Origin: an uncultured Clostridia bacterium
GTDB taxonomy: Bacteria; Bacillota; Clostridia; Christensenellales; UBA1242
NCBI GenBank assembly: GCA_947632645.1
Contig: CANRQB010000001.1
Span: 1 to 64,000, forward strand
Direction: 5' to 3'
DNA: 64,000 bases
In this document: piece after piece, positions 13,600 to 62,948 of the stretch
How the letters are laid out: each line of letters opens with the position of its first letter
Numbering within the stretch: position 1 is the first letter of the stretch
Position numbers and translations under genes: made by a program
Notes under the pieces: generated by a model
What the model saw: only the letters and a program-made list of their open reading frames with translations
Told to the model about the DNA's origin: nothing
Databases searched by the model: none

Positions 13600-13761
13600 A
13601 AAGTTTTAGTAAAATAAATAGATAAAATTGCAAAAAAATTAAATAAAAATAAATTTATTTAAAACAAATAGCAAAAAAAATTTAAAATTTTCAAAAATTA
13701 ATAAATATTTTGTGAAAATATTAAAAAAATACGAAAAAAATCTATATTTTACTAAAACTTT
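13600..13761. repeat. 17-bp perfect inverted repeat after gyrA
   Basis: AAAGTTTTAGTAAAATA at 13600-13616 is exactly complementary to TATTTTACTAAAACTTT at 13745-13761, about 130 nt apart. The first arm starts a few bases after the gyrA stop. No conventional terminator is present here, so this long-range stem may form the 3' end of the gyrBA transcript. The rest of the 13596-13872 gap is A/T-rich without a gene. Confidence 0.6.
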
Positions 13762-13872
13762 TAATTTTTATAAATATTTTTTAATAATTTTTATTTAATT
13801 TTTGAGCTTTTAATTTATTTATAAAAAAATAATTAAAATTCATAAAATAATGCGGGAAAAATATATTAAAAT

Positions 13873-14673
13873 ATGGTTAAATTTGCAAAAAAATTCCTAT
13901 TAATTGTGCTTATGTTGTTTACAACTATAACTTTTTGCGCATGCTCTACCACCCGTTTAGAAACCATTTTTAACGATGATGGCAGCATAGAGGAGCGGCT
14001 TTATGTTACGATAGATAAGGGTGCGGTGGGCGAAAATTTTATTGAAGTGCGAAACAATATAATCTCACTTGCCCAGCAAGAAGTGGAGCGTGAACGCAGC
14101 AAATTTTTGATTTATAATGTGGAATACGGGAACGACATTAAGCCTATCAAAACCGAGATTATCGATGACGAAAACTTTATGATTGGCTTATGGTTTGCCG
14201 ATTCGGATTGCTACAACGCATTTTACAATTTAGGGAGCAGCAACAAGGCGGAATATCAATATCAAAAACATTTTTTGTACACAAAAGTTTACAAGCAGGG
14301 GCTAACAATGCTAACGCACCCTAAGTTAGAGGAAGTGTACAATCGGGTGGAAGCAAAAATACTTAATATGTATCCCGAATTTTCTGGCATGGAAAAGCAA
14401 AACGAAATGCGCTATACTATGATTGCAGATCTGCGGCGGGAAAAATCCAATGCCGATATCGTGCAAAAAATTAATGGCAAGTACTATCACACTTGGGTGG
14501 TGGATATGGAAGATCAGCAGCCGATAGAAATTTACTATATTGTTGCCAACCGATCCAACTGGATTTTAATCTGCTTGGGCGTAGTCGTTGTGGTGTGCGC
14601 AATTCTGTGCGCAGTTGGCTTAAATATTTTAAACAAGCAAAAAAGGAAAAGTGATGAAAGTAAAAGTGCTTAA
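13873..14673 (+). CDS. Lipoprotein with C-terminal membrane anchor, unknown
   Basis: 266 residues. The N-terminus is a lipoprotein signal (KKFLLIVLMLF...TFCAC followed by STT; lipid-modified Cys about residue 25), then an extracytoplasmic domain, then a membrane segment (about 236-257) and a basic tail (KQKRKSDES). The opening after the Cys (TRLETIFNDDGSIEERLYVTID) is of the kind seen in LppM-like lipoproteins, but this is weak. No clear ribosome site precedes the ATG; a possible TATATT -10 box ends 5 nt before it. The end overlaps the next small frame by 20 nt. Confidence 0.75.
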   Translation: MVKFAKKFLLIVLMLFTTITFCACSTTRLETIFNDDGSIEERLYVTIDKGAVGENFIEVRNNIISLAQQEVERERSKFLIYNVEYGNDIKPIKTEIIDDENFMIGLWFADSDCYNAFYNLGSSNKAEYQYQKHFLYTKVYKQGLTMLTHPKLEEVYNRVEAKILNMYPEFSGMEKQNEMRYTMIADLRREKSNADIVQKINGKYYHTWVVDMEDQQPIEIYYIVANRSNWILICLGVVVVVCAILCAVGLNILNKQKRKSDESKSA

Positions 14674-14830: not shown

Positions 14831-15170
14831 TGTTTAGGTGGGCATAAAGGATATTGCGTCTACACTTAGGTGCTAACGCAAGGCGTGTATCCACAATACC
14901 CTTTACACCCAATTGCACAATAACCCAATCAAACTGCACGTTTATGCTCCTCGTAAGTTATTTCAAGCGGGAAAAGTTTGAAAGTAAGGCAAGTTGGCAT
15001 AGATGCTTCTCAAGGCGTGTATCTGCAACACCCCTTATACTCAAAGGCACCGTACACCAATCAAACTGCGCTTTGGAACTCCTCGTAAGCGGTTCCAAGT
15101 GGGTAAAATATTTTGTGCGTAAGGCAGGCGGGTAGAAAAGGACAAACTGCGCTTTGGAAAACACTTCATT
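14831..15170 (+). repeat. Family A repeats, two tandem copies plus fragment
   Basis: Copy A1 (about 14831-14986) and copy A2 (about 14990-15130) share AAGGCGTGTATC, CAATCAAACTGC, CTCCTCGTAAG and AAG(C/T)GGG in the same order; a fragment (ACAAACTGCGCTTTGG) follows at 15141. In A2 the conserved CTCCTCGTAAG is enclosed by TTGGAA/TTCCAA, a possible stem. A third copy (A3) lies inverted at 16087-16224, on the far side of nrdG. There is no convincing reading frame: the frame through A1/A2 has no start context. The 14813-15243 gap otherwise holds only the terminator at 15178. Confidence 0.8.
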
Positions 15171-15177
15171 TTTAACA

Positions 15178-15206
15178 AAAAAACTCATAAAGTTATGAGT
15201 TTTTTT
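15178..15206. terminator. Bidirectional terminator downstream of nrdG
   Basis: AAAAAACTCATAA-AG-TTATGAGTTTTTT, a perfect stem with A/T tails on both sides; it can serve nrdG (minus) and the plus-strand repeat region. Confidence 0.9.
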
Positions 15207-15243
15207 AATAATTTATTTAAAAATTTGCAAATGTTTGTATAAA

Positions 15244-15804
15244 TTAATCTAGGTTTTTAAAATCTTTGCTGCGTTTTTCGTTTAGGTGGCTTAGCACTAT
15301 GTGGCCGGATTTTAGTGTGGCGGGCACATCTATAACGCGCTGGTTGCTGCTGCCTTTAAAGCGCAGGGTGATATCTTTAAGTTGATACTTAAATTCGCCG
15401 TCCACCAAAATGTCTATGTATTTTAAAAACTCGGGCGTGATATCTTTGTTGTAGGCGCGGCTTGGCTTTTGCAGTTCTTCATCCAGCAGATAGCCAGTAT
15501 AGCACCAAATGGTTTTGTTCGGATACAGTTCTTTAACCCGCTTAACAAACGGCAACAGCACTTGTTGATTTACAACTTCCATCGGCTCGCCACCCAGCAG
15601 TGTTAGGCCGTTTACATAGCCGGGCTTAAGTGCCTCGATAATTTTGTCTTCAACTTCGCGCGTGAAAGGTTTGCCATAGTTAAAATCCCAAGTTTCTGGG
15701 TTAAAACATTGTTGGCAGTGATGAGTGCACCCGCTAACAAACAGGCTAACGCGCACCCCTTCTCCATTTGCAATGTCGTAATATTTAATGTTACCATAAT
15801 TCAT
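15244..15804 (-). CDS. nrdG: Anaerobic NTP reductase activating enzyme
   Basis: Radical-SAM activase that places the glycyl radical on NrdD. 186 residues. The CX3CX2C iron-sulfur motif is C26-T-H-H-C30-Q-Q-C33; the following FNPETWDF and the LTLLGGEPM segment (SAM binding) are typical. Length is a little above the common ~155-175. ATG follows AAAAGGAGCGG. nrdD lies 429 nt upstream on the same strand; the gap contains an inverted repeat at 15974-16032 and the family A copy, so nrdG may be transcribed separately. Confidence 0.95.
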   Translation of the reverse strand: MNYGNIKYYDIANGEGVRVSLFVSGCTHHCQQCFNPETWDFNYGKPFTREVEDKIIEALKPGYVNGLTLLGGEPMEVVNQQVLLPFVKRVKELYPNKTIWCYTGYLLDEELQKPSRAYNKDITPEFLKYIDILVDGEFKYQLKDITLRFKGSSNQRVIDVPATLKSGHIVLSHLNEKRSKDFKNLD

Positions 15805-15973
15805 AAGCCGCTCCTTTTAAGCAAACATGCTTGATTAATTTCTGTTTTTAAAATTTTAGTTAAGTTAGTAAAACTTTTTGACTATTTTGTAATTTTATTG
15901 TTTAAGTGCTAGTTGTTGAAATTTTAATTAAAAAGTTTAAAAAATATTAAAATTTTATGATTTTTTGATAAAA

Positions 15974-16040
15974 TAAGGCAGGTTTGAATAATTTTTATTT
16001 AAAATTGATATCATTTTCAAACTTGCCTCACTTTATTTTT
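15974..16040 (-). terminator. Hairpin between nrdD and nrdG
   Basis: AGGCAGGTTTGA (about 15977-15988) pairs imperfectly with TCAAACTTGCCT (about 16017-16028) across a 28-nt AT-rich loop. It could be a weak terminator or RNA-processing site in the nrdD-nrdG transcript. The remainder of the 15805-16233 gap is AT-rich DNA plus the family A copy. Confidence 0.45.
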
Positions 16041-16086
16041 ATTAATCTTTTTGCCTTATTCTTCTTGAAATTGCTTTCATTTTACC

Positions 16087-16224
16087 CGCTTGAAACTTCT
16101 TACGAGGAGCCCCAAAACGCAGCATGATTAGAGCTTGGTGCACTTGGGTGTAAAGGGCATTGTGGATACACGCCTTGCGAAGCACTAAGTGTAGACGCAA
16201 TATCCTTTATGCCCACCTAAACCA
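16087..16224 (-). repeat. Family A repeat, inverted copy next to nrdD
   Basis: Read on the minus strand this copy (A3) matches A1 almost base for base at its 5' end (TAGGTGGGCATAAAGG, then ATATTGCGTCTACACTTAG, then AAGGCGTGTATCCACAAT) and again at CTCCTCGTAAG ... TTTCAAGCGGG. It ends 10 nt from the nrdD stop codon. With A1/A2 it forms a 1.2 kb inverted pair around nrdG. Confidence 0.8.
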
Positions 16225-59660: not shown

Positions 59661-59674
59661 ATTTTAGCAAAGTT

Positions 59675-59890
59675 CCCATGCGTAGATAAACACAATTTAA
59701 ATACTTTACCCGCTGCAGTGCGTCACAAACTGCACATTTGCTAAATTTATTTGGCAAGCAAATAAATTGTAAGCCTATGCTTGCTTGTTCCTTTTACACT
59801 TCGAAAATTTTAAATTTTCTTGTGTATTTTATAGGCCTACGAAGTGCCCAAGCGTAGAGATGCACAATTCAAAACTTTGCCCACTGCAGT
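59675..59890 (+). repeat. Family B direct repeat unit, two copies
   Basis: Copy 1 at 59675-59719 and copy 2 at 59847-59890 share the frame CCCA-(T/A)GCGTAGA-...-CACAATT-...-ACTTT(A/G)CCC(G/A)CTGCAGT, about 80% identical over 45 nt. Copy 2 leads directly into the hairpin at 59928. Confidence 0.75.
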
Positions 59891-59983
59891 TCTCTAGCGC
59901 AGGAAAACACAATTCAGGAAAGGATTTATCAAGGGAAACCAGTAGGTGTCCCTTGATAGCACGGGCAACCGCCCAATAATGAA

Positions 59984-60012
59984 AAAAGCGATTTTTCATC
60001 GCTTTTGATAAA
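59984..60012 (-). terminator. Terminator of tRNA-Asn
   Basis: Minus strand AAAGCGAT-GAAAA-ATCGCTTTTTT, 20-50 nt downstream of the tRNA 3' end. Confidence 0.9.
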
Positions 60013-60032
60013 AAAGGGCGCGTTGCCCGCGC

Positions 60033-60107
60033 TGGCGCCCCGAGTAGGGCTCGAACCTACAACCTATCGGTTAACAGCCGAGTGCTCCACCATTGAGCTA
60101 TCGAGGC
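60033..60107 (-). tRNA. tRNA-Asn (GUU)
   Basis: On the minus strand the sequence folds into a full cloverleaf: acceptor GCCTCGA / TCGGGGC, anticodon stem TCGG-CTGTTAA-CCGA with anticodon GTT, T arm GTAGG-TTCGAGC-CCTAC, and an encoded CCA end. The promoter is at 60119-60147 and the terminator at 59984, so it is transcribed alone. Confidence 0.97.
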
Positions 60108-60118
60108 ATTGCGTTATG

Positions 60119-60147
60119 ATTATACTATAATATTTTTTTAATGTCAA
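60119..60147 (-). promoter_or_regulatory. Promoter of tRNA-Asn
   Basis: Minus strand TTGACA (60147-60142), 17-nt spacer, TATAAT (60124-60119): consensus on both boxes. Confidence 0.9.
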
Positions 60148-60407
60148 CAATTTTTTAAAAATTTTTTTAACTTTTTTATTTAATATATCCTTATATAATA
60201 TATTATATATAAAATGTATTATATATTAAAGTATTAAAGAGTGATTATAAGAGCATAATTCAAAAAATTTACTTACGGCAGTTCCCCTGCGCAGGAAGTC
60301 ACATTTCAGGAAAAGAAGTCATGAAGGAAAACCAGCTGGTGTTCCTTCATAGAGAAGGAGCAAACAAACTTCAGGCTTACAATTAATTTGCTTGCAAATT
60401 AATTTAG

Positions 60408-62627
60408 CTAAAGTGCAGTTTGCTCCGAAAATTCGTCTATAAGGAAATTCTTAAGTAGGGTGTAGCGCTTGGCGGTGTAGTTGTTGTGGATCATGCGGGC
60501 GAGCATTTGTTTGCTGCCAACTAGCACAACTGCTTTTTTTGCACGCGTTATGGCGGTGTATAATAGGTTGCGGGTTATAATAATTGGTGCGCCCGGCACA
60601 AGCGGAATAACCACGCAATCGAACTCGCTGCCTTGGCTTTTGTGTATGGTTATGGCGTAGGCAAGCGTAATTTGGCTAAGTTCGCTGGCTGGATAACGGC
60701 ATTCTTTGCCGTCATCAAACAGCACGGTTACATCGTGCGTGTCCGGCTCGATGCGGGTTATATAGCCAATATCGCCATTAAACACCCCGTCGCCAACCGA
60801 TGTGCTGCCATCCGCTTCGTACTTTGTGTAGCTCATTTGATAGTTGTTAACAATTTGCATAACCTTATCGCCAACGTGATATTTGCAAAAATCGCTTGAT
60901 AGTTCAATCCCGCTAAAATGCGGATTTATGGTTAGTTGCAGCCTACTATTTAAATTATCTATCCCACATGGGCCGGCCTTCATGGGCGCCAGTACTTGTA
61001 TCTCTTTAGGCTGATATCCAAAATATTTTGGCAGGCGGCTAGTCACCAGTTCAACAATGGTTTCGCTGTTTTGCTCCATATTGTTGCCCGAAATAAAGAA
61101 AAAGTCGCTGCTTTTGTTATCTATAATTGGCATTTTGCCGCTGTTAATCAAATGGGCATTGGTTATAATCAAACTGTTTTCACCCTGACGATATATGCTT
61201 TTTAGATGTGTGGTTGGTATGCGCCCGCAATCGATTAAATCGCGCAGCACGTTGCCCGCACCAACACTTGGCAGTTGGTCCTTATCGCCAACCAAAATAA
61301 GTTGGGTGGTGGATCTAAGCGCTTTTAAAAGGTGATAGAATAGCGAAACATCCACCATACTCATTTCGTCCACAATCACCACATCGGCATCAAGTGGATT
61401 GTCTTCGTTTCGATGGAAATATGCCGAATCTTCCCCAGTCATTTCTAGTGCGCGGTGTATGGTTTTGGCTTCCATACCACATGCTTCTGTCATGCGTTTG
61501 CTTGCCCGACCGGTTGGTGCGCACAAAAGCACTTTTTTATGCTGTTCTTTGTTCATCTCCAAAATGCAGCGCACAATTGTAGTTTTGCCCGTGCCTGGCC
61601 CGCCAGTTATAATGGATACGCCCTTGGTTAGCGCGGTTTGCACTGCATCGGTTTGCTCACCGTTAAGTATAATTTTATGCAGTCGCTGATAAAAATTTAC
61701 CCCGTCTAAAAAATTGTAGCCGCTATTAAACTGATTAAAGCTAAGTTTATATAACTTTTGGCTTATATATCGCTCTTGAAAATAAAACTTGGTAAGCACG
61801 CAAATATCCGTGCCTTTGTATGAAAAACTCCTTATAAGCCCTTCTATATTTAAAAAATCTATGCAATTTTCTATCAAATGGCGCTCGCCCTCGTCAAATT
61901 GCAAAATTTCCATGCAGCTAGAAATTAAATTTTCTTTTGGCAAAAAGGTGTGCCCCTCGCGCTCGCTTGCCAGTTTAAGCGTGTACACAAGCCCGGCCTT
62001 AATCCTATTTTCACCAAACACATCTATGCCCAGTTTAAGTGCCATTTTGTCCGCAGTTAAAAAGCCCACGCCGTCTATATCCTCCACCAGTTTGTATGGG
62101 TTGGATTTTACCTGCTCGATGGTTTTTTCCTGATAGGCATTGTACACCTTTATCGCCATATTGGTGGAAATATTGTGCGATTGCAAAAACATAATGGCGG
62201 CCTGCATCTGCTTCATATCGTTGTATGCGTTGGAAATTTCTATCGCTTTCTGCCGCGAAATGCCGCGTATTTTGCTAAGCTTAACTGGATTAAATTCTAG
62301 TATGGTTAAAGTGTCCGTGCCAAACTCGTTAACAATTTTTTTTGCGGTGGCGGGGCCAATGCCGTAGATTAGCCCGCTGGATAGATACCTTTCTATAGCG
62401 GGTAGGGTGGTGGGCTCGATAATGTGTGCCTCATTCACCTTAAACTGCTCGCCAAAGCGTTTGTTAACCACAAATTCGCCAGTAAGTTCCAGCGTTTGCC
62501 CTTCAAACACTTCGCTTAATGTGCCAACAGCGGTTATTTTTTTGTTGTCGCATGACAAATTAATAACGGAGTATCCGTTTTCGCTATTTCTAAATATTGT
62601 GTTAATAACGCTGCCAACAATTTTCAT
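60408..62627 (-). CDS. recD2: RecD2-type (RecD-like) SF1B DNA helicase
   Basis: 739 residues from ATG 62627. N-terminal region with an OB-like and helix-hairpin-helix part (FGTDTLTILEFNP..., LIYGIGPATAKKIV), then SF1 motifs: Walker A GGPGTGKTT (about 345), VVIVDEMSMVDVSLF, a Q/GD region LVGDKDQLPSVGAGNVL, and motif VI AYAITIHKSQGSEFDCVV. The 5'-3' helicase RecD2 acts in repair without RecBC. The frame is open 74 codons further upstream, but TTGCAA-17-TATAAT ends 6 nt before 62627 and there is no ribosome site, so leaderless. The 3' end overlaps the family B element. Confidence 0.94.
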   Translation of the reverse strand: MKIVGSVINTIFRNSENGYSVINLSCDNKKITAVGTLSEVFEGQTLELTGEFVVNKRFGEQFKVNEAHIIEPTTLPAIERYLSSGLIYGIGPATAKKIVNEFGTDTLTILEFNPVKLSKIRGISRQKAIEISNAYNDMKQMQAAIMFLQSHNISTNMAIKVYNAYQEKTIEQVKSNPYKLVEDIDGVGFLTADKMALKLGIDVFGENRIKAGLVYTLKLASEREGHTFLPKENLISSCMEILQFDEGERHLIENCIDFLNIEGLIRSFSYKGTDICVLTKFYFQERYISQKLYKLSFNQFNSGYNFLDGVNFYQRLHKIILNGEQTDAVQTALTKGVSIITGGPGTGKTTIVRCILEMNKEQHKKVLLCAPTGRASKRMTEACGMEAKTIHRALEMTGEDSAYFHRNEDNPLDADVVIVDEMSMVDVSLFYHLLKALRSTTQLILVGDKDQLPSVGAGNVLRDLIDCGRIPTTHLKSIYRQGENSLIITNAHLINSGKMPIIDNKSSDFFFISGNNMEQNSETIVELVTSRLPKYFGYQPKEIQVLAPMKAGPCGIDNLNSRLQLTINPHFSGIELSSDFCKYHVGDKVMQIVNNYQMSYTKYEADGSTSVGDGVFNGDIGYITRIEPDTHDVTVLFDDGKECRYPASELSQITLAYAITIHKSQGSEFDCVVIPLVPGAPIIITRNLLYTAITRAKKAVVLVGSKQMLARMIHNNYTAKRYTLLKNFLIDEFSEQTAL

Positions 62628-62633
62628 CACTAA

Positions 62634-62662
62634 ATTATACCTAATAAAAAAAATTTTTGCAA
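62634..62662 (-). promoter_or_regulatory. Leaderless-type promoter of recD2
   Basis: Minus strand TTGCAA (62662-62657), 17-nt spacer, TATAAT (62639-62634), 6 nt to the ATG at 62627. Confidence 0.8.
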
Positions 62663-62948
62663 GCAAATCGGTTGTTAATATATTTGGCAATATAATAAAA
62701 AAATTGTAATATATTATTATATATCGGCTTACTATCCGCTTGCAAGCCAAGCTAACGGCAAATTTTTGCCCCGTAGCCCACATAAAAAGACCCAATTTTT
62801 TGGTAAGGCAATCGGGTTTAAAATTTTTCGCCCAAGGCAAAAAGGTCAAAAATTTTTACAAAAAGCTAAAAATGCGCCCTAAATTGCAATTTTTTTAACT
62901 TTTTTGGCACAAAATAAAGAATTTTTTAAAAATTTTTTAAAAACACTA

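Follow-up and report, generated by a model that had tools for sequence, protein, structure and literature searches.

The BOX elements of Streptococcus pneumoniae are modular in make-up, being composed of boxA, boxB and boxC. These small interspersed intergenic repeats have extensive secondary structure, are almost absent beyond a few close relatives, sometimes modify neighbouring genes and are sometimes transcribed (PMC3049150). REPs, of 20-40 bp with tagged stems of 5-13 bp, form mosaic palindrome clusters that often lie near gene ends; those of the CGTC type are also without a known transposase, and CGTC tags are unreported for Firmicutes in the same source (PMC3733652). Hairpins of two other kinds are relevant here. 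The TM-ECO and ITxF triplex motifs are multi-copy intergenic hairpins with a tethered third tract, and purine-motif triplexes do not form in RNA, while pyrimidine-type triplexes can (PMC4666352). Integron attC sites are characterized by extrahelical bases, an unpaired central spacer and a variable terminal structure (PMC5371416, PMC8946536).

The cluster described here lies beside tRNA-Asn in a window of 64,000 nucleotides, the whole stretch of DNA that was analysed, and is one instance of a genus-wide, previously undescribed family of modular palindromic repeats; our literature search found no palindromic repeats described from Christensenellales. We regard it as a new family whose behaviour is akin to BOX and BIME. 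It resembles BOX, in behaviour, as an interspersed modular hairpin repeat (here with modules A, H, T, P and W/C) without a transposase of its own, but differs in its modules and lineage, its preference for stable-RNA ends, a mirror purine tract and freely replaced stems. As in REP/BIME, palindromes occur in mosaic clusters, often near gene ends, but these modules exceed the 20-40 bp of REPs (H is about 42 bp, T 68 bp, P 70 bp), have conserved internal loops, are nested, and lie mostly at the ends of RNA genes. The co-varying mirror tract and the strong preference for stable-RNA-gene ends are unusual in such a family.

Organization of the cluster

From left to right on the plus strand the cluster reads A, reversed P, C, A plus half A, H, T, tRNA-Asn (on the minus strand), half A, H and P:

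59671-59718, plus: A unit, copy 1 (AGTTCCCATGCGTAGA..CCCGCTGCAGT), an 82% direct repeat of 59843-59889, with more copies genome-wide
59722-59794, minus: P module in reverse orientation, an 86% inverted copy of 60355-60422 (alignment A2, 15 copies)
59796-59825, unstranded: C-type hairpin ACACTTCGAAAATTTTAAATTTTCTTGTGT, which again adjoins P at loci L034, L044 and L048
59843-59914, plus: A unit, copy 2, and a half A unit running into H; direct repeat with copies in the genome
59917-59958, plus: H module 1, with purine tract GGAAAGGATT ahead of a hairpin at 59927-59958 (covariance model R1, 90 bits)
59962-60029, plus: T module (DNA fold z -5.8), 3 nt from the CCA end of tRNA-Asn
60033-60107, minus: tRNA-Asn (GTT) (ARAGORN; Rfam RF00005, 66.5 bits)
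60280-60306, plus: half A unit running into H module 2 (direct repeats)
60309-60350, plus: H module 2, mirror purine tract GGAAAAGAAG at 60309-60318 and hairpin at 60321-60350 (R1, 96 bits; mirror covariation)
60357-60426, plus: P module 2 (DNA fold z -5.3), its right end overlapping the 3' end of recD2
60408-62849, minus: recD2 helicase gene (Pfam HHH_RecD2, OB_YrrC, SH3_13); the bounds are those of the open reading frame, and the real start is probably inside them

The tRNA-Asn promoter is a perfect TTGACA-17-TATAAT (60147-60119). An earlier note on this DNA had described two hairpins sharing the loop AACCAG..GGTG, with two stem positions altered in both arms; both hairpins are present (59927-59958 and 60321-60350) and exactly two pairs differ between them (C-G/G-C and G-C/A-T). 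Their fold z-scores against dinucleotide shuffles are -3.4 as RNA and -5.1 as DNA for copy 1, and -1.4 and -3.6 for copy 2. The note also had a direct and an inverted repeat framing the tRNA. Both repeats are real (45-50 bp at 82% identity, 59670-59719/59842-59890; about 68 bp at 86% identity, 59726-59793/60355-60422), and the inverted one does frame the gene, but both direct copies lie on one side of it. The modules contain no convincing open reading frame, as had been claimed, except that the right arm of the inverted repeat encodes the last codons of recD2.

Copies and distribution

The source genome (885 kb) contains about 25 full copies of H. The 781-bp stretch spanning the cluster gives 104 matches there, many of them to single modules, with E-values down to 1e-57; the weakest, in A/T-rich sequence, are probably chance. 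Model R1, which comprises the half A unit plus H, gives 36 matches in its own genome, some of which are one palindrome read on the opposite strand, and finds copies in 24 of 34 genomes of the genus. With units recurring about 25 times at home, at E-values to 1e-57, and in those 24 relatives, chance is excluded. Outside the genus, R1 matched none of 150 other genomes of the order, seven of them from the same family (E <= 0.001, stricter filters). These are draft genomes, the source genome being 88.5% complete; comparisons are between species, and loci of the source genome were analysed as stretches around matches. Among the named relatives reached by way of recD2 (72-76% identity) is Candidatus Onthoplasma (Clostridia, Christensenellales). 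Carriage by phage or plasmid was rejected: viral contigs held no exact H match, and phage and plasmid records showed no similarity.

The earlier note had named absence of copies in relatives and stem changes that break pairing as findings that would speak against it. Neither was seen, the covariance search it proposed having recovered further copies in the source genome and the relatives. Its suggestion of a palindromic, mobile-type element that the tRNA does not explain is supported by the dispersed modular family, by an insertion at the end of recD2 and by the copies in relatives.

Anatomy of the modules

Across the 20 loci that were read, the recurring orders are A(n)-H-T and A(n)-H-P, with additional W and T- or P-like modules. 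H consists of a purine tract, a 2-nt spacer and a hairpin with a purine-rich 5' arm and a pyrimidine-rich 3' arm; in 21 copies from the source genome only 2 of its 12 stem pairs vary, the same two that differ between the window copies, each with 8 both-side changes and at most one broken cell. T was compared in some fifteen genomes. Its outer helix measures about 9 bp and is followed, after a single bulged base on the 3' strand, by a second helix of 5 bp; then come an A-rich internal loop in which each side carries GA (AATAATGAA/GATAAAAAA in the window) and an inner helix whose sequence is unrelated from copy to copy (AAAAGCGAT..ATCGCTTTT in the window). Conservation of this internal loop is partly built in, since the pattern by which the T set was found fixes part of it. 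P has an outer helix, a conserved GGCTTAY/TAGCAWA internal loop and a variable inner helix, reading AATTAATTTG.. in some copies and GTTTGCC.. or GTCCGC.. in others. The structured modules studied (H, T and P) thus each combine a conserved unpaired part with stems that are freely replaced yet kept in Watson-Crick pairing.

Modules have been exchanged between loci, and some sit inside the hairpin loops of others. H arms enclose W plus a T- or P-like module (T-like at L034 and L040) and, at L050, an unrelated A/T-rich insert; L040 and L044 have an identical inner T stem (GGATGCACAC..GTGCATCC) within different outer stems; and relatives carry tandem arrays of a roughly 170-bp unit (W-P-A-H). Several P and T-like copies that follow W or C end in GACG, which is CGTC on the other strand; H does not, nor does P directly behind H. 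Separately, L072 and L088 contain, downstream of recD2, spaced GTCATTGCGAGCGAAGCGTGGCAATCTC-like repeats resembling CGTC-tagged REPs.

A mirror purine tract in H

Across the genus, the purine tract preceding H mirrors the purine arm of the stem and co-varies with it, as in the tract/arm pairs GGAAAAGAAG with GAAGGAAAA, GGAAAAGGAG with GAGGGAAAA, GGAAGGGGAG with GAGGGGAAA, GGAGAAGAAG with GAAGGAGAA, and GGAAGGGGAA with AAGGGGAAA. Over 29 distinct pairs the mirror score is 210, whereas shuffling the partners gives 184.5 +- 3.7 (p about 5e-5, as low as 20,000 shuffles can show, with kinship ignored); because of shared ancestry the independent mirror changes are fewer than counted, perhaps five. 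Of the 29 H types, 22 fit a rule of 7-8 triads that allows no more than one mismatch, compared with a shuffled mean of 6.7 and a shuffle maximum of 14. At least seven triads with at most one mismatch are found in 60 of 67 genome-level variants; the first H copy of the window falls outside this group. Lengths of G runs in tract and arm are correlated in the GAA subfamily (rho 0.72, p 0.02), with no significant correlation in the GAG subfamily.

Because a mirror repeat cannot pair by Watson-Crick rules, an intrastrand triplex is the natural reading, and the sequences suggest that H could form one, of class I on the plus strand and class III on the minus strand in the scheme of PMC4666352. The order of third strand, purine and pyrimidine matches class I of ITxF, and H shares with the TM-ECO and ITxF motifs a multi-copy, intergenic hairpin with a tethered third tract. 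It differs in its mixed G/A composition, in lying inside a modular composite and in being supported by covariation rather than biophysics; its second, purine-pyrimidine loop, moreover, is about 11 nt, longer than the ITxF setting of 1-6 nt for both loops, because the stem continues above the triads.

Placement at stable RNA genes

Of 29 T copies, 16 lie directly against a mature end, 5' or 3', of a tRNA, tmRNA, 5S or rnpB gene. In the source genome this holds for 9 of the 11 copies scored, which are found at the 3' ends of tRNA-Asn, tRNA-Arg, tRNA-Gly (a tail copy), 5S and rnpB, and at the 5' ends of tRNA-Gln (two), tRNA-Glu and tmRNA. The probability of this placement in the source genome is about 1e-18, given about 60 RNA-gene ends and a generous assumption of 100 kb of intergenic DNA. 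In relatives T abuts tRNA-Glu, -Gln, -Lys, -Gly and 5S. Inspection by eye added further cases, T or T-like modules behind the CCA of tRNA-Ile, Ser(cga), Leu(caa) and Leu(aag). Nor is the window's tRNA incidental, with T 3 nt from its CCA end and placement at RNA-gene ends recurring across the genus. T occurs in both orientations relative to the RNA gene.

Beside tRNA-Asn, T carries two terminator-like sites on the tRNA strand, and most relatives have a simple hairpin-plus-T terminator right behind the CCA; T has probably taken over termination here. In several relatives (L191, L198, L222 and others) the spacer that separates the 23S and 5S rRNA genes contains an H plus P-like unit, which is probably transcribed there.

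Pairing in the stems

Pairs were counted in strictly defined copies; an earlier count on loosely defined T and P matches, mostly spurious, was dropped. The inner helices of 29 T copies contain 260 Watson-Crick, no G-T and 3 A-C pairs, their outer helices 453, 3 and 4, and the H stems 701, 10 and 8, so that G-T and A-C are equally rare in T and H together (13 and 15 in about 1,440 pairs). By comparison, of 792 pairs in tRNAs of these loci 734 are Watson-Crick and 58 (7.3%) are G-U, the G-U share being the only comparable figure as the tRNA finder does not score A-C. If an RNA of one strand were under selection, G-U would be expected to outnumber A-C on that strand; with no such excess, the arms seem to be held paired as DNA rather than as one-strand RNA. 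According to two reports, compensatory changes have a known source in template switching at imperfect palindromes, in which one arm serves as template for the other (PMC8794818; PMC8604942); a need for a folded DNA strand would have the same effect.

These counts bear on the strongest rival, in which the modules are structured noncoding or cis-acting RNA, transcribed from the plus strand or by read-through of the RNA genes, that serves processing or termination of stable RNAs and was multiplied by duplication. The stems do covary, the T internal loop is of a tandem G-A or kink-turn-like kind, copies stand beside tRNA, 5S, tmRNA and rnpB, and T has its terminator-like sites on the tRNA strand; the copies in the transcribed 23S-5S spacer of several relatives also fit an RNA role and count against our own explanation. 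But G-U pairing at the level of the tRNAs is missing, and the equal rarity of G-T and A-C weakens an RNA function; T lies in either orientation to its gene; one insertion is at the end of recD2; and Rfam yields no match, its gathering score returning only the tRNA in the window and only known stable RNAs at 18 other loci, and relaxed thresholds nothing beyond known RNAs. We consider this account unlikely, and the noncoding RNA of the earlier note is accordingly not upheld.

Insertion and mobility

P supplies the recD2 C-terminus EQTAL*, a tail absent from the recD2 of 22 relatives. The H model finds no match at those 22 loci (one weak P-like match, L071, lies upstream of recD2), so the H-P pair arrived in this lineage. 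Likewise this species alone has A-H-T directly behind tRNA-Asn; the others have a simple terminator there or different inserts. In several species tRNA-Asn is followed by a module with an inverted T-arm fragment on one side and, on the other, a direct copy of the tRNA tail including its terminator, as if inserted into a duplicated T-arm loop; tRNA-Gly(gcc) of the source genome shows the same arrangement.

We found no transposase or other moving enzyme linked to the repeats in the source genome. A REP/RAYT origin was rejected, as the source genome has no Y1 transposase and Y1 elements of relatives look like ordinary IS200: matches occur in 7 of 34 genus genomes, and the four inspected have no H nearby. 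Reverse transcriptase was rejected as a source, there being none in the source genome (8 of 34 genus genomes have one). The source genome encodes two tyrosine recombinases (Phage_integrase) with no clear relation to the repeats.

T raises the possibility that the modules are attC-like sites of single-strand recombination, at which a tyrosine recombinase cuts the folded hairpin and blocks are exchanged. Like attC, T has an outer helix, a 1-nt bulge in its 3' strand, a short helix, an unpaired centre and a terminal helix that varies; its structure is fixed and its stem sequence free, and modules are exchanged and nested. This account is nevertheless improbable. The core R and L boxes (RYYYAAC/GTTRRRY) occur in 0 of 29 T copies, which speaks against attC identity; no gene cassettes lie between modules; and of just two tyrosine recombinases in the genome, one is beside a tRNA-Leu 3' fragment resembling its own att site. 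Equally hard to credit is an account without a mobile element, in which ordinary intergenic palindromes arise and stay perfect through template switching during replication and through local duplication close to tRNA genes. In its favour, the stems are near-perfect and without wobble, inverted T-arm fragments and direct tRNA-tail copies flank the tRNA-Asn inserts of several species, and template switching is described as homogenising inverted repeats and able to invert loops (PMC8794818; PMC8604942). It does not, however, carry A-H-P at 80-88% identity to many unlinked loci, and it does not make mirror repeats.

Several other arrangements were noted. Contig 16 of genome G000 has a full tRNA-Leu(tag) (1055-1137) and, about 13 kb away, a 3' fragment of it (about 14300-14365; about 1300-1366 in L040) adjoined by a tyrosine integrase (13717-14145; L245), together probably an integrated element. 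Genomes G001, G002, G011 and G018 have extra partial tRNA-Asn copies (positions 29-75), in some with integrase-like sequence behind tRNA-Asn, which suggests integration sites. At L104 (G000 contig 21) a tRNA-Glu 3' tail plus terminator is tandemly repeated downstream of the gene. In the window, long inverted repeats at 14832-16222 (38 bp exact plus about 100 bp at 77-80%), some 1.0-1.3 kb apart, may bound another element.

Discussion

Our preferred explanation, to which we assign a probability of roughly 60%, is that the cluster is part of a genus-wide modular family of non-autonomous palindromic DNA repeats, best read as a BOX/BIME-like mosaic of mobile DNA hairpins at the ends of stable RNA genes that may act as terminators. 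The identity of the repeats, their structure and their preference for RNA ends are demonstrated, while mobility, triplex formation and the enzyme are inferred. Copies would propagate in the form of DNA hairpins, which an enzyme of the host or of an element probably moves in trans or which are copied by template switching at hairpins, and would settle at the ends of highly transcribed RNA genes. Complementarity of the arms would be kept at the DNA level, by template-switch repair of imperfect palindromes, by a need for the folded single strand, or by both, giving compensatory changes without wobble intermediates. H would form a class I intrastrand triplex on the plus strand (class III on the other), and T, once settled, would act as a transcription terminator for the neighbouring tRNA. 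A further proposal, which we advance tentatively and think somewhat doubtful, is that single-stranded DNA hairpins make up a new kind of mobile system, inserting at mature stable-RNA ends and in hairpin loops, with recognition through the conserved unpaired loops and the triple-helical hairpin while the stems are left free.

Triplex motifs have until now been based mainly on pattern searches and in vitro work, and the mirror covariation offers comparative evidence of possible selection on an intrastrand triplex in the DNA of bacteria. Compensatory changes, commonly taken as proof of a functional RNA, can build up in a DNA element, and comparing G-T with A-C mismatches tells the two cases apart. 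The link to tRNA, tmRNA, 5S and rnpB genes in very small genomes of gut bacteria raises the questions of how such repeats choose their sites and whether their hosts use them as terminators.
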